From Ariolimax columbianus (taxonomy: Eukaryota > Mollusca > Gastropoda > Stylommatophora > Arionidae), in contig JAVGWX010000004.1 in NCBI GenBank assembly GCA_036924085.1, positions 77,673,090-77,737,089 of the forward strand: a stretch of 64,000 nucleotides of DNA, in the 5' to 3' direction. Both the position numbers and the translations under genes were made by a program. Positions 2,995 through 59,749 of this stretch are shown in pieces. How positions within the stretch are numbered: the stretch's first letter is position 1; the number at the start of each line of letters is the position of its first letter. A model generated the notes under the pieces. That model saw only the letters and a list, made by a program, of their open reading frames with translations, made no database searches and was not told the origin of the DNA.

Positions 2995-3135
2995 GATCTG
3001 TGTCACCCATTTGTAAATTGCTAACTGACATAAGGGTGGTGAAGAAACGAGAAATAGAGCGGGCCACACAATCTACAAATATGTTTACACTTGATGTCCA
3101 CTCAGTTGTAAATTGGTACCAGGCTTACATTAACA
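2995..3135 (+). repeat. SINE-1 fragments
   Basis: Two partial SINE-1 bodies: CACCCATTTGTAAATTGCTAACTGACATAAG with the GAAGAAACGAGAAATAGAG body, and CACTCAGTTGTAAATTGGTACC. Heads are missing. Confidence 0.45.
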
Positions 3136-3504
3136 AACCAATGTTGTCTATAAAACAAAACTTAATCCTTGTCCACAACTATATTTTATCACACCTGCCA
3201 TCTCAACAGTCTGCTGAGGAAACAATGAGTCGAAGGATAATGCAATTTTGCAAACTTGACGGTTGGTATGTGCTGTTTATATCAGAAGTGACATCATCAT
3301 GGGCATCGTACGTATGTTCAATTGTTTTCGTTTGGTCCTGTTTCATTTGAACGCGCCTCGTAGATCCATAAAAACAAAGCTCGTTATGGAAACACTGACA
3401 ACTAATCAATAGCAAACAGTCTTGGGAAAGGATGTGCCTCAGAACGTGAAAAGTATAACGTAGTACACTGAAAACCTTTTCTCCAACAACAAGGGTATAA
3501 TGAG

Positions 3505-4899: not shown

Positions 4900-4912
4900 G
4901 ACTTAGTTATAC
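4900..4912. repeat. 13-bp target-site duplication, left copy
   Basis: The sequence gacttagttatac occurs here and again at 16777-16789, with nothing extended on either side. The left copy directly abuts the (CTT)n that is the 3' (GAA)n tail of LINE copy A, as expected after target-primed reverse transcription. The right copy directly abuts the outer end of the rDNA 5' ETS. The pair therefore brackets one 11.9-kb insertion. Confidence 0.75.
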
Positions 4913-4935
4913 TTCTTCTTCTTCTTCGTACGCAG

Positions 4936-7900
4936 TCAGACAGTAACCATTATTTTTTCGAAAAAAGCGGCGGTCATCCTGAGGCTGTCGCCGCTGCCAT
5001 AGAGCTTGTCTTGCAGTTCCACTGGTGATGGCCACATCTGCTCTCTCTGATCCTCGTATGTCGGGCAGTTCTGCAGCAGATGTTCAGCGGTCATTTTACC
5101 GGTACCGCACGGGCATTCGTCGGTACCACCTATCTTCAATTTGTTGAATAGGTGGTACCTCAGTCTATTGTGGCCAGTGCGAAGTCTGAAGACAACGACC
5201 TGCTCTCTTCGGTTCAACTGGTAATAGGCATCGTTTTTGGTGTAACCAGTATGTTCGGTTTCCCATTTGGTCATGTATCTGGCTTTGATAAGCCGTTTTG
5301 ACACTTCGTACGTCATACTAGTATCTGTTTGTGGTAGTCTTGCACCTTCTTTTGCCAGTCTGTCTGCCTCCTCGTTGCCTTGGATGTTGCAGTGTGATGG
5401 GACCCACTGTACCACTATCCTTTTTGGTGCGGACTGCTGGCACAGTTTGCAGAGTGCTGCTCTTAAGTCATTAAGCTCAGTGTTTTTCTGGCTTTTTAGC
5501 GCTGTGACTACGGCGAGAGCATCTGTAAGCAGGACTCTATGGCTTTCATTTTCATTTTGTGTCACCATTTCTTCCACTGCCGCCCTCAGTGCCTCTGCCT
5601 CCGCTCTGAAATTGCTTGTGTACTTACCAGTAGTGATTGACAGTGTTATTTGTCTGCCATTTGGTAGGTTCAGGAATGCTCCTGCCCCTCTGTTCTGTGT
5701 AGTGTTTGTTACAGAACCGTCGGTGTATGCATGGGTCCAGTCCATGCTTGGGTAGCTTTTCGATATGAAGCTTAGGGTAGTATCTCTCCTTTCTTTTTCA
5801 GTCTGGCAGTTTTTGTTTGCAATACCTGGTATATTTTCTACCACCTCTGGAAATATATCCTGCCTCCAGGTAGGTTTTCGTACAGTAGTGATGGGTTTTG
5901 GTGTTGTTAGGGCGTTTATGGGATCTTCGTGCATCTTTGCTTTGGCTATTTCTGCAAAGTTTCTCCGCTTTAGTTTCCCATTTCCCACATTGTTTAGTCT
6001 CTGATGCATTGGATGGTCAGTCAGTCTTCGGAGTTTCTCTGACTGCAGCTGGGCTCTGCAGTCTCTTCTATCGGTCATGGATTGCAGTTTTGTAATCTTT
6101 TCAAGTTCTACAATTGGCGTTGACTTCATGCCTCCTGTTATAACTCTCATGGCTTGGTTTTGAAGTTTGCTAACTTTATCGAAGTTCGCCTTTGCTGCTG
6201 TTGCCCATGCCGCAATGCCATACTCGAGAACTGGTCTCACTCTTCCAGTGTACAGTTTCTTTAGTATGCCTTCGTCTGCTCCCCAGCTTGTGCCAGCACG
6301 TTTCCTCATGATTGCCATTCTTTCTCTGGCCCTCATTCGGTTTCTCTCGATCTGACTTTTCCATATCATGCGCCGATCAAATGTGACTCCCAGACAGGTT
6401 GGGTTGTCGTTTGGCTGCAGGAATTTGCCATTTAGACTTAATTTGGTATTTTGGGGTTTTGTTGAAAGCGAGAATATTGTGCATGTGGTTTTCTCCTCGT
6501 TTATTTTGACCAGCCATGAGTTCGCCCACTCTTCCAGCGATGTTAGGGCCTGCTGCATCCGATTTCTTGCTATGGTGAGATTCTTTTCAGAGGTCCACAT
6601 AGCCAGATCGTCTGCAAACATTCAGCTATGGACTCTCCTTGGTATATTCTCTGTAATGTCGTTTATATATACCAGGAAGAGTGTGGGTGACAGTACTCCC
6701 CCTTGGGGTACTTCCTGCTCGAGTGTCACCTTTTTGCTCATCTGCCCTTGTACTTGGACTCTGGCCGTTCTTTGTTTGAGGTAGTGGTTGATCCACTTGT
6801 ACATTTTCCCACAAACATCACTTCTTCTTAGCTTGACTCTAAGTCCGTCTTTCCAGACTTTGTCAAATGCCTTTTCCAGATCCACCCAAACAGCTACTGT
6901 GTGTTTCTGTGCCTGGTAGGCATCTTCTATTTCCTGGGCTATGAGGATGACCTGGTCCTCAGTGGATCTGTGCTGTCTAAAGCCGGCTTGCTGTGGAATT
7001 AGTATTCGTTTTTCTTCCAGATGCCACATCAGTCTGGTGTTTATCATACGTTCCATCAGCTTGCCGACACAGCTCAGTAGGCTGATGGGCCTGTATCCAT
7101 TTGGATCTGTTTTGTCCTTTCCTGTTTTTGGTACTGGTACCAGTATTGCGTCTTTCAATTCTCCTTTTCCAGCTTTGGTTCAGGACCGATAGCAGTTTCC
7201 TCTTCGCTGTTTGGCCCAGCCCCATCAGCATTTCGTTTGTTATCCCGTCTTTTCCGGGAGATTTCCTTTTCTTTAATGTTCTCATAGCCTCTTCCATTTC
7301 GCTCATTGTTAATTTGGCCATCATGTGCTCTTCATGTGCCGTATTTATGTTGTCGTGCCCCTTTAGCTCTTCGCTAATGTCTGTATGCTTATCTGGAGGG
7401 ACCTCGATGTGGTTTGCTCTGGCATAGTGATCGACAAAAGCGTTTGCGGCTTTGTTACCTGTGAGCAAGTTTTCGCCCTGCTTGATGGTAATTTTGTTTG
7501 TTTGACGGGGTTTCGTCGTTCATGGCTCTGACTAACTTCCATAGCTTGTTCCCGTCTTTGTCCAGGTTTAGGCTTTCCGTTTTGTTTTTCCAGCTTTCTC
7601 TTGCTGTTTGCTTGAGAGTGTATTTGTATTTCGCCGTGGCGGCTTGGAGGGCGATGTTTGCCTCCATAGATTGTTCTCGCTCTGCCATGTTCCTAGAATT
7701 TGTTACTGCATCTTCCGCTTTCTGCAACTCATCATTCCAGTAGGGCTTATAGTTTTTCCTAGCTCCTCTTGGGATGGTTTCAGTGGCGGCTTGCATTATT
7801 GCCTTGCTCAGGCTTTCCACCATGGGCTTCATTTTGTTGTTTCGTGTGTTGATGGTTTCACACAGCCCATCTGTCAGGATTGCAAATCTGCCCCAGTCTG

Positions 7901-8105
7901 CTCGTTTGTAATTTCAACGTGGGAGCGGTTTTGTTTCCTGTGGGCCTACTTCCATATCGATGTCTAGCCTGATCGGCCTGTGGTCGCTACCTGCCAGTTG
8001 GTTTAGCACCTGGCGGTCTATTTTATGGTGTATGTCCTGTGTGGAGAAGGCCAAATCTGGAGTCGAGGTGGTATGCCATGTTCTTGAATAGAAGCTAGGG
8101 CTATC
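4936..8105 (-). pseudogene. Copy A reverse transcriptase/RNase H, broken
   Basis: The minus-strand frames together cover the pre-RT linker, RT and RNase H. Visible motifs are DLEKAFDKVW (RT motif A), PQGGVLSPTLF (motif B), FADDLAMW (motif C), TDGSVT, AEAEALRA, LLTDALAV and NEEADRLAKEGA (RNase H acidic residues), then CPCGTGK..HLLQNCP (cysteine/histidine cluster). Breaks: a TGA just before the FADD motif at 6621, a ~17-bp deletion near 7160 that shifts frame, and further frame changes near 7460 and 7830. The last 561 codons (4936-6621) are open. Not functional as it stands. Confidence 0.85.
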
Positions 8106-8117
8106 CTCCGGCCTATT
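8106..8117. repeat. 12-bp target-site duplication of copy B, left
   Basis: ctccggcctatt is repeated at 10933-10944. In the element's own sense strand this is AATAGGCCGGAG, a sequence that occurs once in the intact copy C (near 12957). Copy B therefore inserted into copy A at this site. Confidence 0.85.
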
Positions 8118-10932
8118 CTTCTACTTCTTCTTCTGCGTACACAGTCAGACAGTAACCATTATTTTTTCGAGAAAAGCGGCGGTCATCCTGAGGCTCTCGC
8201 CACTGCCATAGAGCTTGTCTTGCAGTTCCACTGGTAATGGCCACATCTGCTCTCTCTGATCCTCGTATGTCGGGCAGTTCTGTAGCAGATGTTCAGTGGT
8301 CATTTTACCAGTACCGCACGGGCATTCGTCGGTACACCCTATCTTCAATTTGTTGAATAGGTGGTACCTCAGTCAGTTGTGGCCAGTGCGAAGTCTGAAG
8401 ACAACTACCTGCTCTCTTCGGTTCAACTGGTAATAGGCATCGTTTTTGGTGTAACCAGTATGTTCGGTTTCCCATTTGGTCATGTATCTGGCTTTGATAA
8501 GCCGTTTTGACTCTTCGTACGTCATACTGGTATCTGTTTGTGGTAGTCTTGCACCTTCTTTTGCCAGTCTGTCTGCCTCCTCGTTGCCTTGGATGTTGCA
8601 GTGTGACGGGACCCACTGTACCACTACCCTTTTTGGTGCGGACTGCTGGCACAGTTTGCAGAGTGCTGCTCTTAAGTCATTAAGCTCAGTGTTTTTCTGG
8701 CTTTTTAGCGCTGTGACTACGGCGAGAGCATCTGTCAGCAGGACTATATGGCTCTCATTTTCACTGTGTGTCACCATTTCTTCCACTGTCGCCCTCAGTG
8801 CCTCTGCCTCCGCTCTGAAATTGCTTGTGTACTTACCAGTAGCGAATGACAGTGTTATTTTTCTGCCATTTGGTAGGTTCAGGAATGCTCCTGCCCCTCT
8901 GTTCTGTGTAGTGTTTGTTACAGAACCGTCGGTGTATGCATGGGTCCAGTCCATGCTTGGGTAGCTTTTCGTTATGAAGCTTAGGGTAGTGTCTCTCCTT
9001 TCTTTTTCAGTCTGGCAATTTTTGTTTGCAATACCTGGTATATTTTCTACCACCTCTAGAAATATATCCTGCCTCCAGGTAGGTTTTCGTACAGTAGTGA
9101 TGGGTTTTGGTGTAGTTAGTGCGTTTATGGGATCTTCGTGCATCTTTGTTTTGGCTATTTCTGCAAAGTTTCTCCGCTTTAGTTTCCCATTTCCCAAATT
9201 GTTTAGTCTCTGGTACATTGGGTGGTCCGTCAGTCTTCGGAGTTTCTCTGACTGCAGCTGGGCTCTGCAGTCTCTTCTATCGGTCATGGATTGCAGTTTT
9301 GTAATCTTTTCAAGTTCTACAATTGGCGTTGACTTCATGCCACCTGTTATGATTCTCATGGCTTGGTTTTGAAGTTTGTTAACTTTATCGAAGTTCGCCT
9401 TCGCTGCTGTTGTCCATGCCGCAATGCCATACTCGAGAACTGGTCTCACTCTTCCAGTGTACAGTTTCTTTAGTATGCCTTCGTCTGCTCCCCAGCTTGT
9501 GCCAGCAAGTTTCCTCATGATTGCCATTCTTTCTCTGGCTTTCATTCGATTTCTCTCAATCTGACTTTTCCATGTCATGCGCCGATCAAATGTGACTCCC
9601 AGATAGCTTGGGTTGTCGTTTGGCTGCAGGATTTTGCCATTTAGAAATAATTTGGTACTTTGGGGTTTTAATGAAAGCGAGAATATTGTGCACGTGGTTT
9701 TCTCCTCGTTTATTTTGACCAGCCATGAGTTCGCCCACTCTTCCAGCGATGTTAGGGCCGTCTGCATCCGATTTCTTGCTATGGTGAGATTCTTTTCAGA
9801 GGTCCACATAGCCAGATCGTCTGCAAACATTGAGCTATGGACTCTTCTTTGTATATTCTCTGGAATATCGTTTATATATACCAGGAAGAGTGTGGGTGAC
9901 AATACTCCCCCTTGGGGTACTCCCTGCTCGAGTGTCACCTTTTTGCTCATCTGCCCTTGTACTTGGACTCTGGCCGTTCTTTGTTTGAGGTAGTGGTTGA
10001 TCCACTTGTACATCTTCCCACAGACATCACTTCTTCTTAGCTTGACTCTAAGTCCGTCCTTCCAGACTTTGTCAAATGCCTTTTCCAGATCCACCCAAAC
10101 AGCTACTGTGTGTTTCTGTGCCTGGTAGGCATCTTCTATCTCCTGGGCTATGAGGATGACCTGGTCCTCAGTGGATCTGTGCTGTCTAAAGCCGGCTTGC
10201 TGTGGAATTAGTATTCGTTTTTCTTCCAGATGCCACATCAGTCTGGTGTTTATCATCCGTTCCATCAGCTTGCCGACACAGCTCAGTAGGCTGATGGACC
10301 TGTATCCATTTGGATCTGTTTTATCCTTTCCTGTTTTTGGTACTGGTACCAGTATTGCGTCTTTCCACGCCTGGGGTACAATACCCCTTTTCCAGCTTTG
10401 GTTCAGGACTGATAGTAGTTTCCTCTTCGCTGTTTGGCCCAGCCCCATCAGCATTTCGTTTGTTATCCCGTCTTTTCCGGGAGATTTCCTTTTCTTTAGC
10501 GTTCTCATAGCCTCTTCCATTTCGCGCATTGTTAGTTTGGCCATCATGTGCTCTTCGGGAGCCGTATTTATGTTTTCGTGTCCCTTTAGCTCTTCGCTAA
10601 TGTCTGTATGCTTATCTGCAGGGAACTCGATGTGGTTTGCTCTGGCATAGTGATCGACAAAGGCGTTTGCGGCTTTCTTACCTGTGATCAAGTTCTCGCC
10701 CTGCTTGATAGTAATTTGTTTATTTGACGGGGTTTCGTCGTTCATGGCTCTGACTAGCTTCCATAGCTTGTTCCCGTCTTTGTCCAGGTTTAGACTTTCC
10801 GTTTTATTTTTCCAGCTTTCTCTTGCTGTTTGCTTGAGAGTGTGTTTGTACTTCGCCGCTGCGGCTTTGAGGGCGATGTTTGCCTCCATGGATTTTTCTC
10901 GCTCTGCCATGTTCCTAGCATTTGTTACTGCA
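8118..10932 (-). mobile_element. GAA-LINE copy B, 5'-truncated, nested in A
   Basis: A 2.8-kb member of the same family in the same orientation as its host copy A. It begins at TGCAGTAACAAATG (10932, in the pre-RT linker) and ends in GCAGAAGAAGAAGTAGAAG at 8118. Both sides carry the 12-bp duplication. 5' truncation plus TSD plus (GAA)n tail fits ordinary target-primed insertion. Confidence 0.85.
8145..10910 (-). pseudogene. Copy B RT-RNase H ORF, interrupted once
   Basis: An 845-codon open frame (8373-10910) holds RT (VDLEKAFDKVW, VPQGGVLSPTLF, FADDLAMW) and a complete-looking RNase H (TDGSVT, AEAEALRA, LLTDALAV, NEEADRLAKEGA). It ends at a TGA after RTGHN where copy A reads NRLRYH; this single nonsense change cuts off the last ~75 codons with the CPCGTGK..HLLQNCP cluster, still readable at 8145-8348. 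The endonuclease domain was never copied. This is the best preserved RT plus RNase H in the window, so its insertion into A is fairly young. Confidence 0.85.
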
Positions 10933-11541
10933 CTCCGGCCTATTGATTAGGGAGAGATTTGTATCTATCTCCCAATCTTCCACTTCGTCACCTCTGCTGT
11001 CTGTGTCAGAGTATCCCCATCTCTCCGAGTGGCTGTTGAAATCTCCAACTACTATGCAGTTGGAGTCTCTGACCTCCATACTCGAGAGCGATAGGTCTCT
11101 ATTTGGTGGTCCGTACAGATTGAAAATGCGGAGCTTCGTCTCTTGAGCCATTATGTTAACTCCTACAATTTCTGCTTGTCCGGTGTGACTGACAGGTACC
11201 GCGCTACTCGGTATGCAGTTTCTGGTCAGTATCAGGACCCCTCCTTTGTGGCCTTCTCTATCGAGACGGAAGGTCTGGTATCCTCTGATTGAGAATTTAT
11301 GATTATTGTTGAGGTGCGTTTCCTGGATACATGCCACGTCAATCTTACCTTCATGCAGGTGATGTTTTAGGGAAAGTATTTTGTTAATGACTCCCTCCGC
11401 ATTACACTGTAGTATTTTGAGGGTCTTGAGTTTTTGGTCAATAAAAGTTGCCCCATAGCCATGTGCCTTGACTCCACGACACATGGGTGGGTGACCACCA
11501 GTAGTCAAGGGTGGGCCCCTTCGAGGCGTGAGGCCCGGCAC
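10933..11541 (-). pseudogene. Copy A apurinic-type endonuclease domain
   Basis: Minus-strand frame of an exonuclease-endonuclease-phosphatase fold: LQCNAEGVINK, VACIQETHLNNNH, GVLILTRN, FNLYGPPNRD and VVGDFNSHSERWGY. The domain nicks the target DNA in this kind of LINE. It stops where copy B is inserted (after INRPE), so the SDHRP motif lies on the other side of B. A frame change separates it from the likely start upstream. Confidence 0.8.
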
Positions 11542-11991
11542 TATCGCTGCCTGGCGGGACTAAGCAGGATAAGCGTCATGCGTTTTTCTGATCAGTTGTA
11601 CTGTCATCATGCTGCGATTTACGTTGCACTGTTTTGTTAGGCTTGCGGCCCCGTGCATCCGATTTCAAATGGCGTTTCTGTAGGGATGCCCTCCTTAGCC
11701 TTTGGCTGTCCTTAGCCTATCTAGCAGTTGTTTATGATCAGAGTTGTCTCTCTTATGGAAGTTGTCTTACCAGACTATCGAGTCTTCACTACTCGTGTCT
11801 ATAGGGTGCGATGATGATATGTCAGATGATATATGAGATATATGATATGGACTGGTTTACCCGGAAGAGAGGCAGCCCAGTGTGTCTGTATCCCAGGATC
11901 GTCACGTCCTGCCAGAAACGTAGCATTTGCATGTGAGTGGGGTATCTCTTTCTCCCTTTATTTTCTTGGCTTCTATGAAGAGATGGTACGC
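10933..11991 (-). mobile_element. GAA-LINE copy A, 5' part (5' UTR + endonuclease)
   Basis: Continues copy A upstream of the nested copy B. The 5' end is placed at 11991 because copies A and D both show the same sequence up to GATGGTACGC (plus strand) and then differ; D ends at 52246. The 5' UTR carries the core GAAATCGGATGCACGGGGCC near 11640-11670. Immediately outside, 11992-12000 repeats nine bases of the element (tatgaagag), then copy C starts in the opposite orientation. Confidence 0.8.
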
Positions 11992-12000
11992 TATGAAGAG
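11992..12000. other. Head-to-head junction of copies A and C
   Basis: Nine bases (tatgaagag) identical to 11974-11982 separate the 5' end of copy A (minus) from the 5' end of copy C (plus). From here both arms read outwards as near-identical sequence for about 1 kb, giving a very large imperfect palindrome. The extra bases look like slippage or a template jump. Confidence 0.55.
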
Positions 12001-15000
12001 ACGTGACGATCCTGGGATACAGACACACTGGACTGCCTCTCTTCCGGGTAAACCAGTCCATCTCATATATCACATACCATCATTGCACCCTATAGACACG
12101 AGTAGTGAAGACTCGATAGTCTGGTAAGACAACTTCCATAGGAGAGAAAACTCTGATCGTAAACAACTGCTGCCTTGCAGATAGGCTGGGGACAGCCAAA
12201 GGCTAAGGAGGGCATCCCTACAGAAACGCCTGTTGAAATCGGATGCACGGGGCCGCAAGCCTAACAAAACAGTGCAACGTAAATCACAGTATGATGGCAG
12301 CACAACCTATTCGAAAAACGTATGGCGCTCATCCTGAGGAGACCCGCCAGGCAGCGATAGCGCCGGGCCCCACGCCTCGAAGGGGCCCACCCTTGACTAC
12401 TGGTGGTCACCCACCCATGTGTCGTGGAGTCAAGGCACATGGCTATGGGGAAACGACTATTGGCCAAAACCTCAAGACCCTCAGAATATTACAGTGGAAT
12501 GCGGAGGGAGTCATTAACAAAAAACTTTCCCTAACACATCACCTGCATGAAGGTAAGATTGACGTGGCATGTATCCAGGAAACGCACCTCAACAAAAACC
12601 ATAAATTCTCAATCAGAGGATACCAGACTTTCCGTCTAGATAGAGAAGGCCACAAAGGAGGGGTCCTGATACTGACCAGAAACAGCATACCGAGTAGCGC
12701 GGTACCTGTCAATCACACCGGACAAGCAGAAATTGTAGGAGTTGACATAATGGCTCAAGAGACGAAGCTCCGCATTTTCAATCTGTACGGACCACCAAAC
12801 AGAGACCTATCGCTCTCGAGTATGGAGGTCAGAGACTCCAACTGCATAGTGGTTGGAGATTTCAACAGCCATTCGGAGAGATGGGGATACTCTGACACAG
12901 ACAGCAGAGGTGACGAAGTGGAAGATTGGGAGATAGATGCAAATCTCTCCCTAATCAATAGGCCGGAGGATAGCCCTAGCTTCTATTCAAGAACATGGCA
13001 TACCACCTCGACACCAGATTTGGCCTTCTCCACACAGGACATACACTATAAAATAGACCGCCAGGTGCTAAACCAACTGGCAGGTAGCGACCACAGGCCG
13101 ATCAGGCTAACCATTGACATGGAAGTAGGCCCACAGGAAACAAAACCGCTCCCACGTTGGAATTACAAACGAGCCGACTGGGACAGATTTGCAATCCTGA
13201 CAGATGGGCTGTGTGAAACCATCAACACACGAAACACCAAAATGAAGCCCATGGTAGAGAGCCTAAGCAAGGCAATAATGCAAGCCGCCACTGAAACCAT
13301 CCCAAGAGGAGCTAGGAAAAACTATAAGCCCTACTGGAATGATGAGTTACAGAAAGTGGAAGATGCAGTAACAAATGCTAGGAACATGGCAGAACGAGAA
13401 AAATCCGTGGAGGCAAACATCGCCCTCAAAGCCGCCGCGGCGAAGTACAAACACACTCTCAAGCAAACAGCAAGAGAAAGTTGGAAAAATAAAACGGAAA
13501 GTTTAAACCTGGACAAAGAAGGGAACAAGCTATGGAAGCTAGTCAGAGCCATGAACGACGAAACCCCGTCAAATAAACAAATTACTATCAAGCAAGGCGA
13601 GAACTTGATCACAGGTAAGAAAGCCGCAAACGCCTTTGTCGATCACTATGCCAGAGCAAACCACATCGAGGTCCCTGCAGATAAGCATACAGACATTAGC
13701 GAAGAGCTAAAGGGGCACGAAAACATAAATACGGCTCCTGAAGAGCACATGATGGCCAAACTAACAATGCGCGAAATGGAAGAGGCTATGAGAACACTAA
13801 AGAGAAGGAAATCTCCCGGAAAAGACGGGATAACAAACGAAATGCTGATGGGGCTGGGCCAAACAGCGAAGGAAAAACTACTATCAGTCCTGAACCAAAG
13901 CTGGAAAAGGGGTATTGTACCCCAGGCATGGAAAGATGCAATACTGGTACCAGTACCAAAAACAGGAAAGGACAAAACAGATCCGAATGGATACAGGCCC
14001 ATAAGCCTACTGAGCTGTGTCGGCAAGCTGATGGAACGGATGATAAACACCAGACTGATGTGGCATCTGGAAGAAAAACGAATACTAATTCCACAGCAAG
14101 CCGGCTTTAGACAGCACAGATCCACTGAGGACCAGGTCATCCTCATAGCCCAGGAGATAGAAGATGCCTACCAGGCACAGAAACACACAGTAGCTGTTTG
14201 GGTGGATCTGGAAAAGGCATTTGACAAAGTCTGGAAGGATGGACTTAGAGTCAAGCTAAGAAGAAGTGATGTTTGTGGGAAGATGTACAAGTGGATCAAC
14301 CACTACCTCAAACAAAGAACGGCCAGAGTCCAAGTACAAGGGCAGATGAGCAAAAAGGTGACACTCGAGCAGGGAGTACCCCAAGGGGGAGTACTGTCAC
14401 CCACACTCTTCCTGGTATATATAAACGATATTACAGAGAATATACCAAGAAGAGTCCATAGCTCAATGTTTGCAGACGATCTGGCTATGTGGACCTCTGA
14501 AAAGAATCTCACCATAGCAAGAAATCGGATGCAAACGGCCCTAACATCGCTGGAAGAGTGGGCGAACTCATGGCTGGTCAAAATAAACGAGGAGAAAACC
14601 ACGTGCACAATATTCTCGCTCTCATTAAAACCCCAAAGTACCAAATTAAGCCTAAATGGCAAAATCCTGCAGCCAAACGACAACCCAACCTATCTGGGAG
14701 TCACATTTGATCGGCGCATGACATGGAAAAGTCAGATTGAGAGAAACCGAATGAAAGCCAGAGAAAGAATGGCGATCATGAGGAAACTTGCTGGCACAAG
14801 CTGGGGAGCAGACGAAGGCATACTAAAGAAACTGTACACTGGAAGAGTGAGACCAGTTCTCGAGTATGGCATCGCGGCATGGACAACAGCAGCGAAGGCG
14901 AACTTCGATAAAGTTAACAAACTTCAAAACCAAGCCATGAGAATCATAACAGGTGGCATGAAGTCAACGCCAATTGTAGAACTTGAAAAGATTACAAAAC

Positions 15001-15610
15001 TGCAATCCATGACCGACAGAAGAGACTGCAGAGCCCAGCTGCAGTCAGAGAAACTCCGAAGACTGACGGACCATCCAATGTACCAGAGGCTAAACAATTT
15101 GGGAACTGGGAAACTAAAGCGGAGAAACTTTGCAGAAATAGCCAAAGCAAAGATGCACGAAGATCCCATAAACGCACTAACAACACCAAAACCCATCACT
15201 ACTGTACGAAAACCTACTTGGAGGCAGGATATATTTCCAGAGGTGGTAGAAAATATACCAGGTATTGCAAACAAAAACTGCCAGACCGAAAAAGAAAGGA
15301 GAGACACTACCTTAAGCTTCATAACGAAAAGCTACCCAAGCATGGACTGGACCCATGCATACACCGACGGTTCTGTAACAAACACTACACAGAACGGAGG
15401 GGCAGGAGCATTCCTGAACCACTGAAAATGACCACTGAACATCTGCTGCAGAACTGCCCGACATACGAGGATCAGAGAGAGCAGATGTGGCCATTGCCAG
15501 TGGAACTGCAAGACAAGCTCTATGGTAGTGGCGAGAGTCTCAGGATGACCGCCGCTTTTTTCGAGAAAATAATGGTTACTGTCTGACTGTGTACGCAGAA
15601 GAAGAAGAAA
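12001..15610 (+). mobile_element. GAA-LINE copy C, internally deleted
   Basis: A plus-strand copy. It starts at ACGTGACGATCCTGGG, about 90 bp short of the full 5' end, and ends in GTACGCAGAAGAAGAAGAAA at 15610. About 575 bp of the RNase H region are missing at 15419. The tail directly joins antisense 18S rDNA at 15611, corresponding to plus-strand position 54021 in the second rDNA block. No target-site duplication of its own is visible, because its left side is joined to copy A. Confidence 0.85.
12243..15425 (+). CDS. Copy C endonuclease-reverse transcriptase, 1060 aa
   Basis: This is the longest open frame of the window. Endonuclease at about residues 75-290: WNAEGVINKKL, VACIQETHLN, FNLYGPPNRD, VVGDFNSHSERWGY, SDHRPI. 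RT at about 560-830: NGYRPISLLS, VDLEKAFDKVW near 655, VPQGGVLSPTLF, FADDLAMW near 741. It then enters RNase H (TDGSVT near 1040) but stops at residue 1060, because an internal deletion has removed the remaining RNase H acidic residues. The last ~50 codons of the family (HLLQNCP..) follow in another frame (15430-15586). The start is uncertain: ATG at 12243 or 12291. Nicking and RT functions could be intact; RNase H cannot be. Confidence 0.85.
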   Translation: MHGAASLTKQCNVNHSMMAAQPIRKTYGAHPEETRQAAIAPGPTPRRGPPLTTGGHPPMCRGVKAHGYGETTIGQNLKTLRILQWNAEGVINKKLSLTHHLHEGKIDVACIQETHLNKNHKFSIRGYQTFRLDREGHKGGVLILTRNSIPSSAVPVNHTGQAEIVGVDIMAQETKLRIFNLYGPPNRDLSLSSMEVRDSNCIVVGDFNSHSERWGYSDTDSRGDEVEDWEIDANLSLINRPEDSPSFYSRTWHTTSTPDLAFSTQDIHYKIDRQVLNQLAGSDHRPIRLTIDMEVGPQETKPLPRWNYKRADWDRFAILTDGLCETINTRNTKMKPMVESLSKAIMQAATETIPRGARKNYKPYWNDELQKVEDAVTNARNMAEREKSVEANIALKAAAAKYKHTLKQTARESWKNKTESLNLDKEGNKLWKLVRAMNDETPSNKQITIKQGENLITGKKAANAFVDHYARANHIEVPADKHTDISEELKGHENINTAPEEHMMAKLTMREMEEAMRTLKRRKSPGKDGITNEMLMGLGQTAKEKLLSVLNQSWKRGIVPQAWKDAILVPVPKTGKDKTDPNGYRPISLLSCVGKLMERMINTRLMWHLEEKRILIPQQAGFRQHRSTEDQVILIAQEIEDAYQAQKHTVAVWVDLEKAFDKVWKDGLRVKLRRSDVCGKMYKWINHYLKQRTARVQVQGQMSKKVTLEQGVPQGGVLSPTLFLVYINDITENIPRRVHSSMFADDLAMWTSEKNLTIARNRMQTALTSLEEWANSWLVKINEEKTTCTIFSLSLKPQSTKLSLNGKILQPNDNPTYLGVTFDRRMTWKSQIERNRMKARERMAIMRKLAGTSWGADEGILKKLYTGRVRPVLEYGIAAWTTAAKANFDKVNKLQNQAMRIITGGMKSTPIVELEKITKLQSMTDRRDCRAQLQSEKLRRLTDHPMYQRLNNLGTGKLKRRNFAEIAKAKMHEDPINALTTPKPITTVRKPTWRQDIFPEVVENIPGIANKNCQTEKERRDTTLSFITKSYPSMDWTHAYTDGSVTNTTQNGGAGAFLNH

Positions 15611-16118
15611 GAGTCCCGTATTGTTATTTTTCGTCACTACCTCCCCGTGCCGGGAGTGAGTAAGTTGCGCGCCTGCTGCCTTCCTTGGATGTGGTAGCCG
15701 TTTCTCATGCTCCCTCTCCGGAAACCAACCCTGATTCCCCGTTACAAACATGATAGGCATGTCACGTACCATCGACATTTGATAGGGCAGACATTTGAAA
15801 GATGCGTCGCCGGCACATGAGGCCATGCGATCAGCACAAAGTTATCCAGAGTCACCAGTGGGGACGCCGCAACCCCGCGAGGGGAAACAACGATTGGTTT
15901 TTAACTAATAAAAGCGCTCTTTCCGCGAGGGTCGGAGCTTGGTAAGCATGTATTAGCTATAGAATTGCCACAGTTATCCAAGTAGGATCGTGTCATCTAA
16001 GGAACCTCGACTGATTTAATGAGCCATTCGCGGTTTCACCGTGAGACAGTGTGAACTTAGACATGCATGGCTTAATCTTTGAGACAAGCATATGACTACT
16101 GGCAGGATCAACCAGATA
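15611..16118 (-). rRNA. 18S rRNA 5' fragment (pseudogene)
   Basis: The minus strand starts TATCTGGTTGATCCTGCCAG (5' end of 18S at 16118) and runs ~508 nt through TGCATGGCTAAGTC.., the helix with ATTAGCTCTAG region and GGGAGGTAGTGACG to CAATACGGGACTC. It is cut where the LINE tail begins. The segment GATCGCATGGCC is kept here but deleted in the second block (54230). Scattered substitutions against the second block mark it as a non-functional copy. Confidence 0.9.
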
Positions 16119-16776
16119 TCTGTCGGAGACGTACGTAGCGCACACACCGGTCGGCGGATGAAGGGTGTGTAAAAAGCCTCACTGGGACGGCCGCAGGGAC
16201 CGACTGACGGAACGGACGGACGGTTGTTCCACCCGTCCCTCACTCCGTCGACCTAGGACCGCCTGACAGGGGCCCCTACACGCACCAGACGACCGACCGA
16301 CCGGGCTCGCTCGAGGAGGGATGGCAGCGCTCTGTGCAGAACGGATCCCAACGACCTCGGCGATGAATTTCACTGGGACTAGAGACAATTTGGCCTGCCG
16401 GCCTGTCCTTCTCCCGAGGGTTGGTCCCCCCCCCCCCCCCCCCGCGAGAACACAGGGCCTTGAGGCACGATTCCTGCTTTCCATTTGTCGGTCACAAGCT
16501 CTTTTCAAGAGTCTGACCACCAGCGAGACGAACTGTCGAGCTCTGCTATAAGCCTTAGATAAATCACCAAGGACTGACAACGTTTCCTGATATGGACCAG
16601 AGAAGCGCACCTCGGTGGAGGAGACGCCAAAACAAACCGCACCCCAATAGCTCTACGGGGAAAGGCAGGCGAGCGTTTTCCGCAAGCCCGCGCTATCGCT
16701 CCGCCTGGCGGGACTGAGATCGCTTTACGAACACTGGTTGAAATTGAATCGCGGCGGCGAGACAACTACCCCAGAT
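16119..16776 (-). other. rDNA 5' external transcribed spacer
   Basis: This stretch lies directly upstream of the 18S 5' end on the minus strand. It matches 54521-54949, upstream of the other 18S fragment, over blocks such as CACACCGGTCGGCG, GCCGCAGGGACCGACTG, GACCGACCGACCGGGC, GGATGGCAGCGCT, GCAGAACGGATCCCAACG, GAGACGAACTGTCGAG. A C-run at 16429-16443 is an expansion. The outer end at 16776 abuts the right 13-bp duplication and could be at or near the pre-rRNA start; the promoter itself is not identified. Confidence 0.75.
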
Positions 16777-16789
16777 GACTTAGTTATAC
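16777..16789. repeat. 13-bp target-site duplication, right copy
   Basis: gacttagttatac, identical to 4900-4912. Outside it the AT-rich host sequence resumes (gatttattgctttatg). Confidence 0.75.
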
Positions 16790-16904
16790 GATTTATTGCT
16801 TTATGTTTTTATTTTGTGAACCAATATGGAACCGAAAAATATAATCATTCATTGATTTTAATTTCTTATTTTATTCGTGGTGTGTGTTGCACTTTGTTTT
16901 TATT

Positions 16905-41800: not shown

Positions 41801-41974
41801 GTCCCGGTTTCTCTAGCAAAGGGACCCATTGTTTGTCAGGTTATGGACAGAACGAGCCCTACTGTGTGTGTCATGCACAGTGGCGTTCAACGCCTCAGAT
41901 AGTTCCGTCTTTTCCTTTGTCGGTCTTTGGCCTTGAATCCATTGTATCTAAATAGCATTGCTTGTTTGGGTTTT

Positions 41975-48704: not shown

Positions 48705-49300
48705 TGAGGAAGACTAATGTCTGGTCAGGCAAACTATACTTATCAGACATGTTAGTCATTATCAGGCAAAATATACTTATCAGACATGTTAGTCATTATC
48801 AGGCAAACTATACTTATCAGACATGTTAGTCATCATCAGGCAAACTATACTTATCAGACATGTTAGTCATCATCAGGCAAAATATACTTATCAGACATGT
48901 TAGTCATCATCAGGCAAAATATACTTATCAGACATGTTAGTCATCATCAGGCAAAATATACTTATCAGACATGTTAGTCATCATCAGGCAAACTATACTT
49001 ATAAGACATTTTAGTCATCATCAGGCAAACTATACTGGCCAAGATCCTCAAATCAACTTCCTCGTAGCCCTTCATGGAAACGGGCTGTTTTCATGGCAGC
49101 ATGGCTAACAAGATGAGTGATCGACGTGATCCCCGCAGTAGTGAGCCTATTAAATCAAGCATACAACAACCATCTGGAGTGCCAAGGTCCGCCTTCATCA
49201 GCACATTCAGGGTGTGACGAAAGTTACTACAACCCGCCACTTTAAATCATTTTCAGGGCGCACAGAAGAGTAAATGTACTCAATGTGGGCATGCTTCTTC
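48705..49300 (+). repeat. MSR element with ~8 units, cut by LINE copy D
   Basis: Starts GAAGACTAATGTCTGGTCAG; 37-bp units on CTTATCAGACATGTTAGTCA; unique tail CAAGATCCTC, TTTCATGGCAGCATGGCTAA, GATCCCCGCAGTAGTGAGCC, CAGGGCGCACAGAAGAGTAA, CAATGTGGGCAT. It stops at GGGCATG, where the (CTT)n of LINE copy D begins; other MSR copies continue GGGCATTCAAC. Confidence 0.75.
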
Positions 49301-49302
49301 TT

Positions 49303-52246
49303 CTCCTTCTTCTTCGTACGCTGTCAGACGTCAACATGTATTTTTTTTTAAAAAGCAGCGATCATCCTAAGGTTATTGACACAGCCATAGAGCTTGTCTA
49401 GTTTTGCCACTGGTGATGGCCACATCTGCTTTCTCTGATCCTCGTATGTCGGGCAATTTCGCAGCAAATATTCAGCGATCATTTTCCCGGTACCACACGA
49501 GCATTCGTCAGTGCCACCTATCTTCAATTTATTGAATAGGTGGTACCTCAGTCTATTGTGGCCTGTGCGAAGTCTGAAGACCACGACCTGCTCTCTTCTG
49601 TTCAACTGGTAAAAGGCATTGTTTTTTGTGTAACCAGTGTGTTCTGTTTCCCATTTGGCCATGTATCTAGCTCTAATAAGCATTTTTGACTCTTCGTAGG
49701 TCACACTAGGGTCTGGTTGTAGTAGTCTTGCACCTTCTTTTGCCAGTCTGTCTGCCTCCTCGTTGCCTTGGATGTTACAGTGGGATGGAACCCACTGTAC
49801 CACTACTCTTTTTGGAGCGGACTGCTGGCATAGTTGACAGCGGACTGCTGGCATAGTTGACAGAGTACTGCTCTTAAATCATTAAGTTCAGTATTTTTCT
49901 GGCTTTTTAGTGTTGTGACTATGGCCAGGGCATCTGTAAACAGGACTATATGGCTTTCATTTCTTTTGCCTGTCACCATTTCCTCTACTGCAGCCCTCAG
50001 TGCCTCTGCCTCCGATCTGAAATTGCTTGAGTATTTTCCAGTTGCCACTGACAGTGTTATTTTTCTACCGTTTTGTAGGCTCAGGAATACCCCTGCCCCT
50101 CCGTTCTGTGTTGTATTTGTTACAGAACCGTCGGTGTATGCATGGGTCCAGTCCATGCTTGGGTAGTTTTTCGTTATGTACCTCAGGGTTTTGTCTCTTC
50201 TTTCTTTTTCAGTCTGGCTGTTCTTGTTTCCAATACCTGGTATATTTTCTACCACCTCTGGAAATATATCCTGCCTCCAGGTAGGTTTTCGTACAGTAGT
50301 GATGGGCTTTGGTGTTGTTAGTGCGTTTATTGGATCTTCGTGCATCTTTGCATTGGCTATTTCTGCAACGTTTCTCTGCTTTAGTTTCCCATTTCCCAAA
50401 TTGTTTAGTCTCTGGTGCATTGGATGGTCAGTCAGTCTTCGGAGTTTCTCTGACTGCAGCTGGGCTCTGCAGTCTCTTCTATCGGTCATGGATTGCAGTT
50501 TTGTAATCTTTTCAAGTTCTACAATTGGCGTTGACTTCATGCCTCCTGTTATAACTCTCATGGCTTGGTTTTGAAGTTTGCTAACTTTATCGAAGTTCGC
50601 CTTTGCTGCTGTTGTCCATGCCGCAATGCCATACTCGAGAACTGGTCTCACTCTTCCAGTGTACAGTTTCTTTAGTCCTTCTTTATCTAAATTGAGGCTT
50701 TCTGTTTTGTTCTTCCAACTTTCTCTTGTTATTTGGTTTAGAGTGTATTTGTATTTCGCCGTGATGGCTTTGAGGGCGATATTTGCCTCCATAGATTGTT
50801 CTCTTCGTCTTCCGCTTTCTGCAATTCATCATTCCAATAAGGCTTATAGTTTTTCCTTGCCCCTCTTGGGATGGTTTCAGTCACTGCTTGCATTATTGCT
50901 TTGATTAGGCTTTCCACCATGGGTTTTATATTGTCATTCTGTGTGTTGATGGTTTCACACAGCCCATCTGTCAGGATTGCAAATCTGTCCCAGTCGGCTC
51001 GTTTATAATTCCAACGTGGGAGCGGTTTTATTTCCTGTGGGCCTACTTCCATATCAACTTCTAGCCTAACTGGCCTGTGGTCGCTACCTGCCAATTGGTT
51101 TAGCACCTGGCGGTCTATTTTGTGGTGAATATCCACAGCGGAAAAGGCCAAGTCTGGAATAGTGGTGGTATGCCATGTTCTAGAATAGAAATTAGGGCTA
51201 TCCTCCGGCCTATTGATAAGATAGAGATTTGTGTCTATCTCCAAATCTTCCAATTCATCACCTCTGTTGTCTGTGTCCGAATATCCCCATCTCTCCGAGT
51301 GGCTGTTGAAGTCTCCAACTACTAGGCAGCTGGAGTCCTTGATTTCTATACTCGAGAGCGACAGGTCTTTGTTTGGTGGGCCGTACAGGTTGAAGATGCG
51401 GATCTTCGTTTCTGGTGTCATTATGTCGACTCCTACAATTTCTGCTTGTCCGGTGTGATTGACAGCTACCGCGCTACTCGGTATAAGTTACGTGTCAGTA
51501 TCAGAACCCCCTCCTTAGTGACCTTCTCTATCGAGACGGAAGGTCTGGTATCCTCTGATTGAGAATTTGTGGTTGTTGTTGAGGTGCGTTTCTTGGATAC
51601 ATGCCACGTCAATCTGACCTTCATCAGGTGATGTGTTAGGGAAAGCTTTTTGTTAATGACTCCCTCTGCGTTCCACTGTAGTATTCTGAGGGTCTTGTGT
51701 TTTTGGTCAATAGTTTTTGCCCCATCACCTTGTGCCTTGACTCCACAGCACATGGGTGGGTGACCACTAGTAGCATTGGGTGGGCCCCTTCGAGGCGTGA
51801 GGCCCGGCACTCTCTCTGCCTGGTGGGACTCCACAGGATGAGCACCAGACTTTTTTCTGATAGGTTGTGACTGCGATATACGTTGCACTTGTTTCGTTAA
51901 GCCTGTGGCCCAGTGCATCCGATTTCTACAGGCGTTTCTGTAGGGATGCCCTCCTTAGCCTTTGGCTGTCCCCAGCCTATCTGCAAGGCAGCAGTTGTTT
52001 GTGGTCAGAGTTTTTTCTCTTAGGGAAGTTGTCTTGCAGGACTATCGAGTCTTCACCACTCGTGTCTATAGGGTGTGGTGATGATATGATGGACTATGTA
52101 CTAGTTTGTACTATCCCAGAAGAGAGGCAGTCCAGTGTGTCTGTGTCTCAGGATCGTTACGTCCTGCCAGAACGTAGCATATGCATGTGAGTGGGGTATC
52201 TCTTTCCTCTCTTTATTTTCTCGGCTTCTCTGCAGTGATGGTACGC
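49303..52246 (-). mobile_element. GAA-LINE copy D, RT deleted
   Basis: Minus-strand copy with full 5' UTR (5' end at GCGTACCATC, 52246), endonuclease, RNase H and 3' tail CGTACGAAGAAGAAGGAGAA. About 1.3 kb covering the RT is missing at 50676 (junction at a GAAGG present at both ends of the deletion in copy C). A 27-bp tandem duplication (about 49816-49862) shifts frame in RNase H. Immediately upstream lies rDNA in the same orientation. Confidence 0.85.
49348..51918 (-). pseudogene. Copy D endonuclease and RNase H frames
   Basis: Endonuclease frames 51466-51918 and 50738-51421: WNAEGVINKKL, FNLYGPPNKD, VVGDFNSHSERWGY, SDHRPVRL. The frame 49803-50792 runs from the pre-RT linker (SLNLDKEG) straight to LKKLYTGRVRPVLEYG, skipping all RT motifs, then to TDGSVT and AEALRAAVEEM. 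49348-49854 holds NEEADRLAKEGA and the cysteine cluster CSCGTGK. The element cannot make reverse transcriptase and would need help in trans. Confidence 0.85.
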
Positions 52247-52431
52247 CTAGCATTCCCCGCCACCTGGGAGGTCGTCACAATAGGGCAGAGGTACAATGTC
52301 TGCTGGCCTGCATCTCTTCTGCTTCCATTGGGATGACTGATAGCAGACAGAGGTAAAGAGCAAGGCAGGAGTGCATTTAACCAGGGGACAAGCCTGGTCA
52401 TGGCACGGAAATGTTGTTCGCCTGGTGTGCG
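52247..52431 (-). other. Presumed rDNA 3' spacer
   Basis: 185 bp between the end of 28S (GATATGTC at 52432) and the 5' end of LINE copy D. By position it would be the 3' ETS or start of the intergenic spacer. I have no second copy to compare, so this is inference. Confidence 0.4.
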
Positions 52432-53143
52432 GACATATCTCATGATCAAGGGTTGAGTCTCAACAGTTCGCAGTGAGGTGGCTGCTCTACTGTTTACGAC
52501 ACCCTGACCGAGAACTGAGTCTTCTACTAGTGGTTTCACACCTCATCGCCGTATGGGATGAATATTGAGCAGCTTCCCGCCCGCCATGATCGGCGAACGG
52601 CAGAGACCTCTTTCTGCGGCTCGACTGGGTCGGGCTGAGACGCGAGCCCCAGGTCCCAACCATATCGTAGCCTCCCATCGCAGTGGTGCTGAGATTTAGA
52701 GCGGGATTCCGGCTTAGGGGCGTTCGGCCATAATCCCTCAGATGGTAGCCTCGCACCATTGGCTTATCAGCCAAGTACGTGGACCAAATGTCTGCGACCT
52801 GCGATTCCTCTCGAATTAAGCAGGATTTCCGTAGCAACGCCCTGTCATTATTAGGGTAAAACTGACCTGTCTTCCGAGGGTCTAATACCAGCACCCGTTC
52901 CCTATTAGACCCCACGAATCAAGAGAGGGCTTTTTAGTCAGTCAATGACCAAGTGTCTGAAACCTGCGATTCCTCTAGGGTTGAGCAGGATTACCGTAGC
53001 AGACGCTCTTTCATTTAGAGGGTAAAACTGACCTGTCTTCCGTGGGTCTAATTCCAGCACACGTTCCCTATTAGACCCAACGAAAGTGCTCCCAGTCTGT
53101 CAGTCATTTTACAGTGTTGGCGTGTTGAGTCAAATTAAGCCGC

Positions 53144-53183
<40 letters not shown>

Positions 53184-53270
53184 TCGAACACTGAATTCGA
53201 GCCAATCGAGCCACAGAGAGACTAGCCCCAGATTTTCGAGGGTCTAATTCCGGCACACGTTCCCTATTAG
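52432..53270 (-). rRNA. 28S rRNA 3' end patchwork with 18S pieces (pseudogene)
   Basis: Minus strand: 28S domain VI from GGTCTAATAGGGAACG through AGACAGGTCAGTTTTACCCT, GTAATCCTGCT-like and GAGAGGAATCGCAGG, AGCCAATGGTGCGAGGCTAC, GGGATTATGGCCGAACGCC to a 3' end near 52432. The sarcin-ricin loop, normally AGTACGAGAGGA, reads AATTCGAGAGGA, and in a second partial copy (52944-53071) AACCCTAGAGGA. Both are broken. Short 18S pieces (52909-52943, about 53072-53190) separate 28S pieces, each joined at the same 28S site. Confidence 0.85.
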
Positions 53271-53345
53271 ACCCAACGAAAGTGCTCTCGGCCTGTTAAT
53301 CATTTCAGTGTTGAGTCAAATTAAGCCGCAGGCTCCACTCCTGTA

Positions 53346-53378
<33 letters not shown>

Positions 53379-54520
53379 TTTGCAACCATACTTCCCCCGG
53401 AACCCAAACACTTTGGTTTCCCGAAGCTGCCCGCAGAGTCATCGAAGCAACTCCTGCGGATCGCTAGTCGGCATCGTTTATGGTCAGAACTACGACGGTA
53501 TCTGATCGTCTTCGCGCCTCTGACTTTTGTTCTTGATTAATTAAAACATTCTTGACAAATGCTTTTACAGTAGCTCGTCTTGCGGCTATCCGAGAATTTC
53601 ACCTCTAGCGCCGCAATACGAATGCCCCCGTTTATTCCCTGTTAATCATTACCTCCAGTTCCGAAAACCAACAAAATAGAACCGAGGTCCTATTCCATTA
53701 TTCCATGCACCATTATTCAGGCAGCCGAGGCCTGCTTTGAACACTCTAATTTTTTCAAAGTAAACGCGCCGGCCACCCGGGACGCTCAGCGAAGAGCACC
53801 GGCGAGAGAGAGCCGGCAGACGGTAGGGCAGGAGACAACAGGCAGTGAACTGGACCGCCCGCCTGCACCTGAGATCCAACTACGAGCTTTTTAACTGCAA
53901 CAACTTTAATATACGCTATTGGAGCTGGAATTACCGCGGCTGCTGGCACCAGACTTGCTCTCCAATAGATCCTCGTTAAAGGGTTTAAAGTGTACTCATT
54001 CCAATTACGGGGCCTCGAACGAGTCCCGTATTGTTATTTTTCGTCACTACCTCCCCGTGCCGGGAGTGGGTAAGTTGCGCGCCTGCTGCCTTCCTTGGAT
54101 GTGGTAGCTGTTTCTCATGTTTTCTCTCCGGAATCGAACCCTGATTCCCCGTTACAAACATGGTAGGCATGTCACGTACCATCAACATTTGATAGGGCAG
54201 ACATTTGAAAGATGCGTCGCCGGCACATGAGATCAGCACAACGTTATCCAGAGTCACCAGTGAGGACGCCGCAACCCCGTGAGGGGAAACGACGATTGGT
54301 TTTGAACTAATAAAAGCGCTCTTTCCGCGAGGGTCGGAGCTTGGTAAGCATGTATTAGCTCTAGAATTGCCACAGTTATCCAAGTAGGATCGTGTCATCT
54401 AAGGAGCCTCGACTGATTTAATGAGCCATTCGCGGTTTCACCGCGAGACAGTGTGAACTTAGACATGCATGGCTTAATCTTTGAGACAAGCATATGACTA
54501 CTGGCAGGATCAACCAGATA
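53271..54520 (-). rRNA. 18S rRNA 5' two-thirds (pseudogene)
   Basis: The minus strand runs from TATCTGGTTGATCCTGCCAG (54520) through CGCGGTAATTCCAGCTCCAA, the V4 region (about 53760-53890), GAATTGACGGAAGGGCACC to AACAC..GAGAGCACTTTC, where it joins 28S. About 1.2 kb of the ~1.8-kb gene is present. A nine-base loss in GATCGCATGGCC (near 54230) and the loss of ~25 bases after ACTCAACAC show that it is not functional. Confidence 0.9.
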
Positions 54521-54949
54521 TCTGTCGGAGACGGACGAACCACACACACCGGTCGGCGAAGGATGGATGTGTAGAAAGCCTCTCCAGGACAGCCGCAGGG
54601 ACCGACTGGCGATTGTTCCGTCCCTCACTCCGTCAACTAAGGACCGCCTGGCAGGCGCCCGTACACACACAAACCGACCGACCGGGCGCGCTCGGGGAGG
54701 AATGGCAGCGCTTTGTGCAGAACGGATCCCAACGGCCCCCCGCGATGATTTTCACTCGGATTGGAGAAGATTTTTGCCTGCCGGCCTGCTCTTCTCCGAC
54801 CGGTTGGTCGGGTGAGGACAGGGCCTTTAGGCACGATTCCTGCTTTCTATTTGTCGATCCAAAGCTCATTGCGAGAGTTGGATCACAAGCGAGACGAACT
54901 GTCGAGATTGGCTATACAAGCTATCCTTGGACGAACCACACGGACTGAC
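54521..54949 (-). other. rDNA 5' external transcribed spacer
   Basis: Homologous to 16119-16570. Similarity ends at GGACTGACA (54949); beyond this the two loci differ completely (tccaacaacaacc here). Confidence 0.7.
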
Positions 54950-55149
54950 ATCCAACAACAACCACTAGTTCCATAACCACCTCATGTTGAGAGCACTGGT
55001 AAGACCACACTGACATACATACAAAGAAGATTCACATCAACAAGAGCGTACACGTAACTTCACATACCTGTAATATAGCAGGTTCTGTAGGGACAAGAAC
55101 ATCGACAGCATTGGTGACGTCACAGAACTGTGCCAGTGAAGAGGACTGT
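54950..55149. other. No gene recognised
   Basis: Right flank of the second rDNA-LINE block. It starts CATCCAACAACAACC, which resembles the GGGCATTCAACAAC with which MSR elements end. Confidence 0.35.
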
Positions 55150-58924: not shown

Positions 58925-58932
58925 AAGGCCAA

Positions 58933-59741: not shown

Positions 59742-59749
59742 TAAGGCCT

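Follow-up and report, generated by a model that had tools for sequence, protein, structure and literature searches.

Fusions of long interspersed nuclear elements (LINEs) to cellular RNAs are known as occasional accidents. In chimeric LINE-1 (L1) insertions the partner is U6, 5S, 28S or another non-coding RNA, and either template switching or ligation has been proposed (PMC13174262). The 28S/L1 chimeras (n=18) described in the cited part of that report carry segments with a median of 269 nt (50-482), often from near 28S position 3,636. Melanogaster-type R1 copies outside Drosophila ribosomal DNA (rDNA) carry 7-28 bp of upstream 28S, and ancestral-type copies none, in the data cited (PMC2718515). 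Short interspersed element (SINE) heads derived from 28S or 5S ribosomal RNA (rRNA) are named in PMC13174262, 18S-specific LINEs such as R8 in PMC7650587, and in whitefish the LINE Rex1 has been linked to rDNA spread by chromosome mapping, the passages cited giving no chimera sequence (PMC3585787). The element analyzed here lies at positions 4900-16789 of a 64,000-nt stretch (the window) of the genome of the slug Ariolimax columbianus, and joins the 5' external transcribed spacer (ETS) and 18S of the rRNA precursor (pre-rRNA) to LINE sequences. Judged by its sequence, the block belongs to a LINE family with pre-rRNA heads that is large and has been active recently; the fusion is recurrent, long and recent.

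The slug elements resemble L1 chimeras, as far as the cited passages describe these, in having an RNA fused 5' of a LINE inside a target-site duplication, the 28S of L1 chimeras being mostly LINE-oriented. They differ in that heads reach ~1.9 kb, start at a fixed ETS base, are found at at least dozens of loci, and mostly join at a shared pad of 18S-like sequence. As for Drosophila R1 and R2, LINE and rRNA would share one RNA, and R1 copies also feature upstream 28S at the 5' end; unlike the R1 copies described there, those found here are dispersed, carry the ETS and up to 1,237 nt of 18S, and have flanks (30 analyzed) without the rDNA target. R8 shares the LINE-18S junction, but none of the slug insertions seen was at a fixed 18S site, and the junction falls within an 18S-homologous pad. 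The rRNA-derived heads of SINEs are inherited, and reside on non-autonomous elements; the slug family likewise has rRNA at the 5' end of a retroposon, yet on a LINE, and with heads renewed from rDNA. No described family of this kind was found in the open-access literature, which misses most subscription journals.

A dispersed insertion unit with a shared 5' base

The genome (2.29 Gb, 401 contigs) was searched with window positions 15600-16900, and the best 40 of 3,305 first-look candidates (candidates, not a copy count) were listed. They include the window and 39 other places, 95-97% identical, which begin at window positions 15607-15611 and end at 16770-16789. Thirty of the 40 places, window included, were examined with their flanks (L numbers denote loci; L009 is the window). 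The start is the identical ETS base ATCTGGGG in 28 of them, L020 and L023 with an adjacent substitution, and lies 1 and 4 nt later in L035 and L027, respectively. Compared pairwise, the 30 flanks show no resemblance that reaches the start; 17 of 435 pairs have a repeat in common farther away, and a LINE piece is present in two flanks. None of the 1.4-kb flanks matches the ETS, 18S or part of the first internal transcribed spacer (ITS1), the 28S body and the intergenic spacer lying outside this comparison. Insertion at one fixed rDNA site, which defines R elements, was not observed at these 30 loci.

Past the ETS, 18S runs beyond nt 516 to ~nt 1237 in 25 loci of the 29 examined besides the window. 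Next come a mid zone of degenerate 18S/28S repeats and, in the copies examined further, a 28S 3' end and the LINE. The 28S 3' end corresponds to Rfam LSU 3005-3399 of 3401 in L010, L051 and a second member found in the window, D. A complete unit of 6,722 bases, the C22 copy (L049+L010), reads from ATCTGGGG through ETS, 18S, mid zone, 28S end and LINE to (GAA)8, and is bracketed by two copies of GGATGTGGAATA. Eighteen further copies were checked at the expected tail region, the LINE end being inside the stretch in 8 and outside in 10. Clean, perfect duplications of 12-14 bp were found in six of these (L016, L020, L026, L028, L032, L033), a 13-bp duplication in repetitive flank in L011, and 11 bp with one mismatch in L021. 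The C2 copy, examined at both ends, has no duplication, and its tail adjoins another family member. Altogether, 11 copies were seen at both ends, window included: duplications of 12-14 bp are clean in 8, weaker ones are found in 2, and 1 has none. The original prediction had suggested a genome search for other ETS-LINE-GAA blocks with duplications, and such blocks exist. It had also regarded the block as a single unusual event; a one-off origin is rejected, as the same head recurs at at least dozens of dispersed sites.

The window block

The 13-mer GACTTAGTTATAC is found exactly twice on the plus strand of the whole window, at the two edges of the block (Table 1), and never on the minus strand; the chance of a fixed 13-mer at a fixed place is ~2.7e-8 at window composition. 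The duplication reported at the outset is thus real, and it adjoins the LINE tail on the left and the ETS end on the right, as had been claimed. The right edge is fixed independently, ETS relatives elsewhere in the genome ending at the same base, 16776. The contents too are largely as described (ETS, 18S, LINE copies A, B and C, a (GAA)n tail), except that 18S ends at ~nt 516 and not at nt 508. The Rfam 18S match (15517-16115, minus strand) extends at its low end into copy C.

Self-comparison of the window yields four LINE copies, A to D. The parts of copy A are 96-97% identical to the C22 copy. Copy B, since it has its own 12-bp duplication CTCCGGCCTATT, is an ordinary nested insertion, later and separate. 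Copy C is 99.4-100% identical to young copies elsewhere in the genome, starts at C22 position 2532 and interrupts the head of A at 18S nt 516. Its tail ends beside the 18S motif GAAAGAG, and short repeated filler is found where copy A resumes. The expected head of copy A lacks 1.27 kb at this site, and no duplication was found when the window flanks of copy C were compared. The simplest reading is that the insertion of copy C was accompanied by a target deletion. Twin priming of A and C was considered and rejected, because C is 99.4-100% identical to young copies elsewhere and A 96-97% to the C22 copy. As B and C are later insertions, the 11.9 kb did not arrive at once. Of the single event first proposed there remains one target-primed insertion of a chimera reaching from the ETS base to the tail of copy A, marked by the outer duplication and with sister copies built alike; its extension to the whole block is contradicted by the duplication of B, the younger age of C and the missing part of the head.

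The internal deletion of copy C (15420-15425) lies in the RNase H region and is found also in copies on C31; the deleted form may be mobile. At L050 (C31:236000-245500) two tandem LINE copies ~7.1 kb apart, 99.7-100% identical to copy C, have the same deletion and the same sequence past the tail, and a third copy is listed on C31. C31 was tried as an rDNA-LINE array and rejected, since what repeats in tandem there is part of a LINE together with other DNA. The 18S of the head stops at nt 512-516 both in L029 and in the window (15607), next to different neighbours (LINE open reading frame, ORF, in sense in L029, the copy C tail in antisense in the window); this may denote a hotspot or a coincidence.

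Heads, functional rDNA and ETS vintages

Functional 18S was searched with an 18S stretch (best 40 of 653 candidates). Of the 40 places listed, C50 holds five, including a pair 12.3 kb apart, and C1-C25 hold 29. Eight were examined: L079-L082 and L084-L086 feature ETS and 18S, then N; L083 is a LINE head. A consensus was derived from 23 young heads; seven rearranged loci (L009, L015, L026, L029, L031, L035, L038) were excluded, and L010, which has a deletion, was retained in the alignment. The consensus shows no difference from functional rDNA L085 over 1,235 nt of 18S, and 7-8 mismatches in ~1,525 bases (ETS end and 18S) when compared to each of the seven rDNA loci. Variants in the 23 heads comprise 444 singletons, and 17 sites with the minor allele in at least 3 copies.

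Member D is far more diverged. Compared to the young consensus, it differs at 67/422 ETS, 29/1205 18S and 108/769 mid-zone positions, 18S being 2.4% and ETS 16% off (Fisher p 1.5e-20). A third type of ETS is found at L057, which matches functional rDNA L085 with 0 mismatches over 881 bases and 4 gap positions. Since the consensus differs from the L057 ETS while L057 matches L085, at least three ETS vintages, that of D, that of the window and that of today, can be distinguished by sequence.

Modern starts were searched with 116 nt upstream of the L057 start plus ETS 1-330 (best 40 of 1,369 candidates). The matches listed are L057 and 39 further places, 99-100% identical, all 39 beginning at query positions 101-116 (the start base is 117); 38 are on C1-C23, one on C135. 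A 420-nt stretch spanning the 18S-mid zone junction was searched likewise (best 40 of 1,205 candidates), and 39 further places among the matches listed are 100% identical, as rounded, with one and the same score, hence a recent burst. The young LINEs L041, L042, L045 and L047 leave 18S at nt 1237, with 0/189, 0/176, 1/177 and 1/165 mismatches, respectively. On C2 a junction place lies 1,687 bases from a modern start, the distance expected of a head; on C3 an 18S place lies 1,808 bases from a modern start, so that 18S continues past nt 1237 there (places chosen by eye in both cases). Of eight loci chosen by the LINE 5' region (L040-L042, L044-L048), five have 18S heads readable to the join, and L044 runs into N.

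Dispersed rRNA sequence is widespread in this genome, and matches to 18S, ITS and 5.8S in a genome like this one do not necessarily denote rDNA loci. Among the matches listed, 40 5.8S places exceed the cut-off, on many contigs, and the 29 18S places on C1-C25 are 99% identical to the query; six of the 40 5.8S places, and none of the 29 18S places, were examined as sequence.

Heads and LINE lineages

The mid zones of 23 copies define three lineages, 13.7-17.9% apart and varying by 3.1-7.1% within each. Heads are 2.3-2.9% apart both inside and across lineages (Mantel r -0.10, p 0.92), and informative ETS/18S variants are not grouped by lineage overall (53 sites, p 0.52; 17 sites, p 0.44). Relationships among heads agreeing with those among bodies, as inherited heads should display, were thus not found in this set, two ETS sites discussed below leaning the other way. 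LINE 3' ends of nine young copies and of window copies A and B are 94.4-98.5% similar irrespective of lineage, and D is 85-87% similar to them; L028, a partial match, was excluded from this comparison. L031 matches D at 93.9% in the mid zone and 94.1% at the LINE start, but at 83.3% in the ETS; compared to the C22 copy the figures are 82.9% in the mid zone and 96.9% in the ETS. L031 is a LINE of the old lineage of D with a younger head. Because the 18S of heads equals functional 18S, and heads do not follow the LINE lineage, heads have been drawn repeatedly from functional rDNA or its transcript.

These data bear on the notion of a self-propagating family, in which a single capture gave the head, and every new copy has received it by descent. 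The same architecture is found in the three lineages and in D, as such descent would predict; nevertheless, heads as a whole do not track lineage, the combination found in L031 contradicts it, and it is ETS, mid zone and body that drift, 18S remaining identical to functional rDNA. Inherited heads are on these grounds rejected, and we hold this origin to be highly improbable.

Junctions and the 18S-like pad

Junctions were compared in 34 heads (the 29 listed loci without the window, plus L041, L042, L045, L046 and L047). In 29, 18S is left at nt ~1234-1247 for the mid zone, at a homologous site. L010, L026, L031 and L046 exit 18S at nt 719, 1076, 904 and 858, respectively, and enter the 18S-like pad at the 18S-equivalent positions 1222, ~1227, 1151 and 1211; all four joins show 1-4 nt of microhomology by eye. 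Large 18S deletions end within 87 nt of the junction in 4 of 5 cases, these four but not L035. L035 (internal 18S deletion) and L038 (18S duplication with extra sequence) retain the usual junction, and so does L015, which then skips into the ORF. In L029, the only such case among the 34, 18S nt 512 is joined to the ORF.

Other loci carry different parts of pre-rRNA. In L053 and L056, 5.8S with ITS pieces (ITS2) is joined to the pad. ITS1-5.8S-ITS2 is joined to the 28S end in L052, is followed by ~130 nt of the 28S 5' end (by eye) before joining the 28S end in L054, and lies ahead of the ETS start in L057. In L083, 18S 1043-1393 is joined to the mid zone. On the LINE side, the odd joins of L010, L026, L031, L046, L053 and L056 are all in the pad. 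As expected of template switching, foreign RNA is found 5' of the LINE inside one duplication in most of the copies seen at both ends, and junctions are variable, with homology or microhomology. In ITS1, the starts of the L052 and L054 heads are ~2 nt apart, possibly at a site where pre-rRNA is cleaved; L053 and L057 reach further up.

The LINE protein

Copy C has a stop-free frame of 1,062 amino acids with endonuclease and reverse transcriptase (RT). The RT matches PF00078 (E 1.8e-39 in copy C, 7e-39 in copy B), and in copy C an apurinic-type endonuclease lies upstream of it (PF14529, E 3.8e-18; PF03372, E 1.3e-12). Copy B has RT and RNase H. The nearest PDB relatives are LINE-1 ORF2p structures (E 7.6e-32). 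An RVT_1-type RT, an upstream endonuclease and a 3' tail beside the duplication identify the element as a LINE, or non-long terminal repeat (non-LTR), retrotransposon. The C22 copy, its own frame broken, has no long second frame upstream; the longest has 162 codons, and lies in the ETS.

Origin of the heads

We give about an even chance to the view that insertions of this LINE family carry heads newly copied from pre-rRNA, by a switch of the RT at the pad. In target-primed reverse transcription the enzyme would copy the LINE RNA from the (GAA)n tail through the ORF, and then enter a 5' region built of old repeats derived from 28S and 18S. There, the 18S-like pad (18S nt ~1174-1244) would let the growing complementary DNA (cDNA) move onto pre-rRNA, usually at nt ~1237. 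The cDNA would run to the 5' end of pre-rRNA, presumably the RNA polymerase I (Pol I) start, and the insertion would be closed with a 12-14-bp target-site duplication; the window block would be one such insertion, afterwards broken by B and C. The sequences show units inserted with a fixed 5' base, the 18S identity, the reassortment of heads and lineages, and the location of odd joins mostly in the pad on the LINE side. We infer that the exchange occurs at the RNA level, in the course of reverse transcription, and that the 5' base of the head, ATCTGGGG, is the Pol I start. That the 18S-like repeats are an evolved landing pad, from which the RT hands over by homology to nascent pre-rRNA, is more doubtful. 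If this were true, the 5' head of every insertion would be renewable and track the host rDNA of the day, and the genome would retain dated copies of past ETS versions.

Several observations do not sit easily with a switch at the pad. The consensus and L085 differ at 7 positions, all within ~290 ETS bases, and the consensus and the L057 ETS at 34 of 627, so that heads of the window vintage do not stem from the ETS of today. ETS variants at sites 147 and 202 occur more often in lineage 1, a hint of some inheritance which the self-propagating family would also predict. Joins fall outside the pad at the 28S end in L052 and L054, in the mid zone in L083 and in the ORF in L029. The odd 18S joins of L010, L026, L031 and L046 might be deletions of later date, though four of the five large 18S deletions end close to the junction, as noted above. 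L040 and L048, two of the eight loci chosen by the LINE 5' region, have no 18S head. Lastly, the constant junction and start fit also a LINE sitting in the rDNA unit. This alternative, according to which LINEs of several lineages reside in 18S at ~nt 1237 of rDNA units and are retrocopied from Pol I readthrough RNA, ETS-18S(1-1237)-LINE, concerted evolution holding their heads to the functional rDNA sequence, is a sizeable possibility, short of even. The fixed start, the fixed junction, the zero-difference 18S and the 39 further junction loci of one score, among the matches listed, are all as expected of resident masters, and R1 copies with 7-28 bp of upstream 28S outside rDNA provide a small-scale precedent in the passages cited (PMC2718515). 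Yet none of the seven functional rDNA loci examined (of 40 listed) is interrupted by a LINE, as far as readable; the ETS haplotypes, several in each lineage, would call for numerous masters or for recombination at a high rate; and residence alone leaves unexplained the ITS2-pad joins of L053 and L056, the joins of L029 and L083, and the clustering in the pad. Template switching accounts for head identity, reassortment and pad joins, rDNA residence for most of these. The original prediction had envisaged a readthrough transcript or jumps onto rRNA, and these are the two explanations that survive.

Pre-rRNA might instead be ligated or spliced to LINE RNA before reverse transcription and ordinary insertion. 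The DNA product would be the same, and ligation is an alternative for L1 chimeras in the part of the literature cited (PMC13174262), but the joins lie in homology or short microhomology, which makes this route improbable. Least credible by far is that the block resulted from two unrelated abutting events (an rDNA fragment beside a LINE) or from an assembly join: rDNA and LINEs are prone to misassembly, and the C2 copy has no duplication, but the same join is found at many sites with different flanks, and duplications bracket head and tail together. Since one genome offers dozens of natural replicates, template switching through a pad and rDNA residence are open to test by sequence. Heads look like dated ETS snapshots, which would record the evolution of the rDNA spacer and likely mark the start of pre-rRNA.

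Member D and other repeats of the window

Coordinates of the window features are reported in Table 1. The ETS of D matches young heads only from ETS position 198 on, and is ~16% different. Comparison of its flanks revealed no target-site duplication beyond a chance 8-mer.

Table 1. Parts of the rRNA-LINE block and of member D in the 64,000-nt window
Feature	Position	Strand	Source
Left copy of the 13-bp target-site duplication GACTTAGTTATAC	4900..4912	+	
(GAA)5 3' tail of LINE copy A, adjoining the left duplication	4913..4927	-	
LINE copy A, 3' part, RT to RNase H region	4913..8117	-	
Copy B target-site duplication CTCCGGCCTATT (12 bp), left	8106..8117	+	
LINE copy B, nested, 5'-truncated; RT and RNase H domains	8118..10932	-	Pfam
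Copy B target-site duplication CTCCGGCCTATT, right	10933..10944	+	
LINE copy A, 5' part; begins at C22-copy position 2449, rest of 5' region missing	10933..11991	-	
LINE copy C, younger, antisense; (GAA)n tail against 18S; internal deletion 15420/15425	12000..15610	+	
18S rRNA nt 1 to ~516, part of the head of copy A	15607..16116	-	Rfam
5' ETS; first base of the head = 16776 (ATCTGGGG), common to 28/30 loci	~16117..16776	-	
Right copy of the 13-bp target-site duplication GACTTAGTTATAC	16777..16789	+	
D, older LINE body, GAA-type tail, internal deletion	49294..52164	-	
D, mid zone of degenerate 18S/28S repeats	52165..53307	-	
D, 28S 3' end, Rfam LSU 3005-3399 of 3401	52435..52843	-	
D, older head, 18S nt 1 to ~1235 and ETS	53308..54950	-	Rfam 18S match 53398-54517

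Tandem repeats of 52 and 39 bp (window 55159-56237 and 57513-58562) are found beside the rRNA-LINE block of D, and part of the second array is an open frame of repeated peptide. A satellite with 70-bp units (59 copies, ~97% matches) spans window 41974-46113. On the plus strand, at 58927-61959, frames resemble, by eye, fragments of a further LINE-like element, including an RT-type frame.

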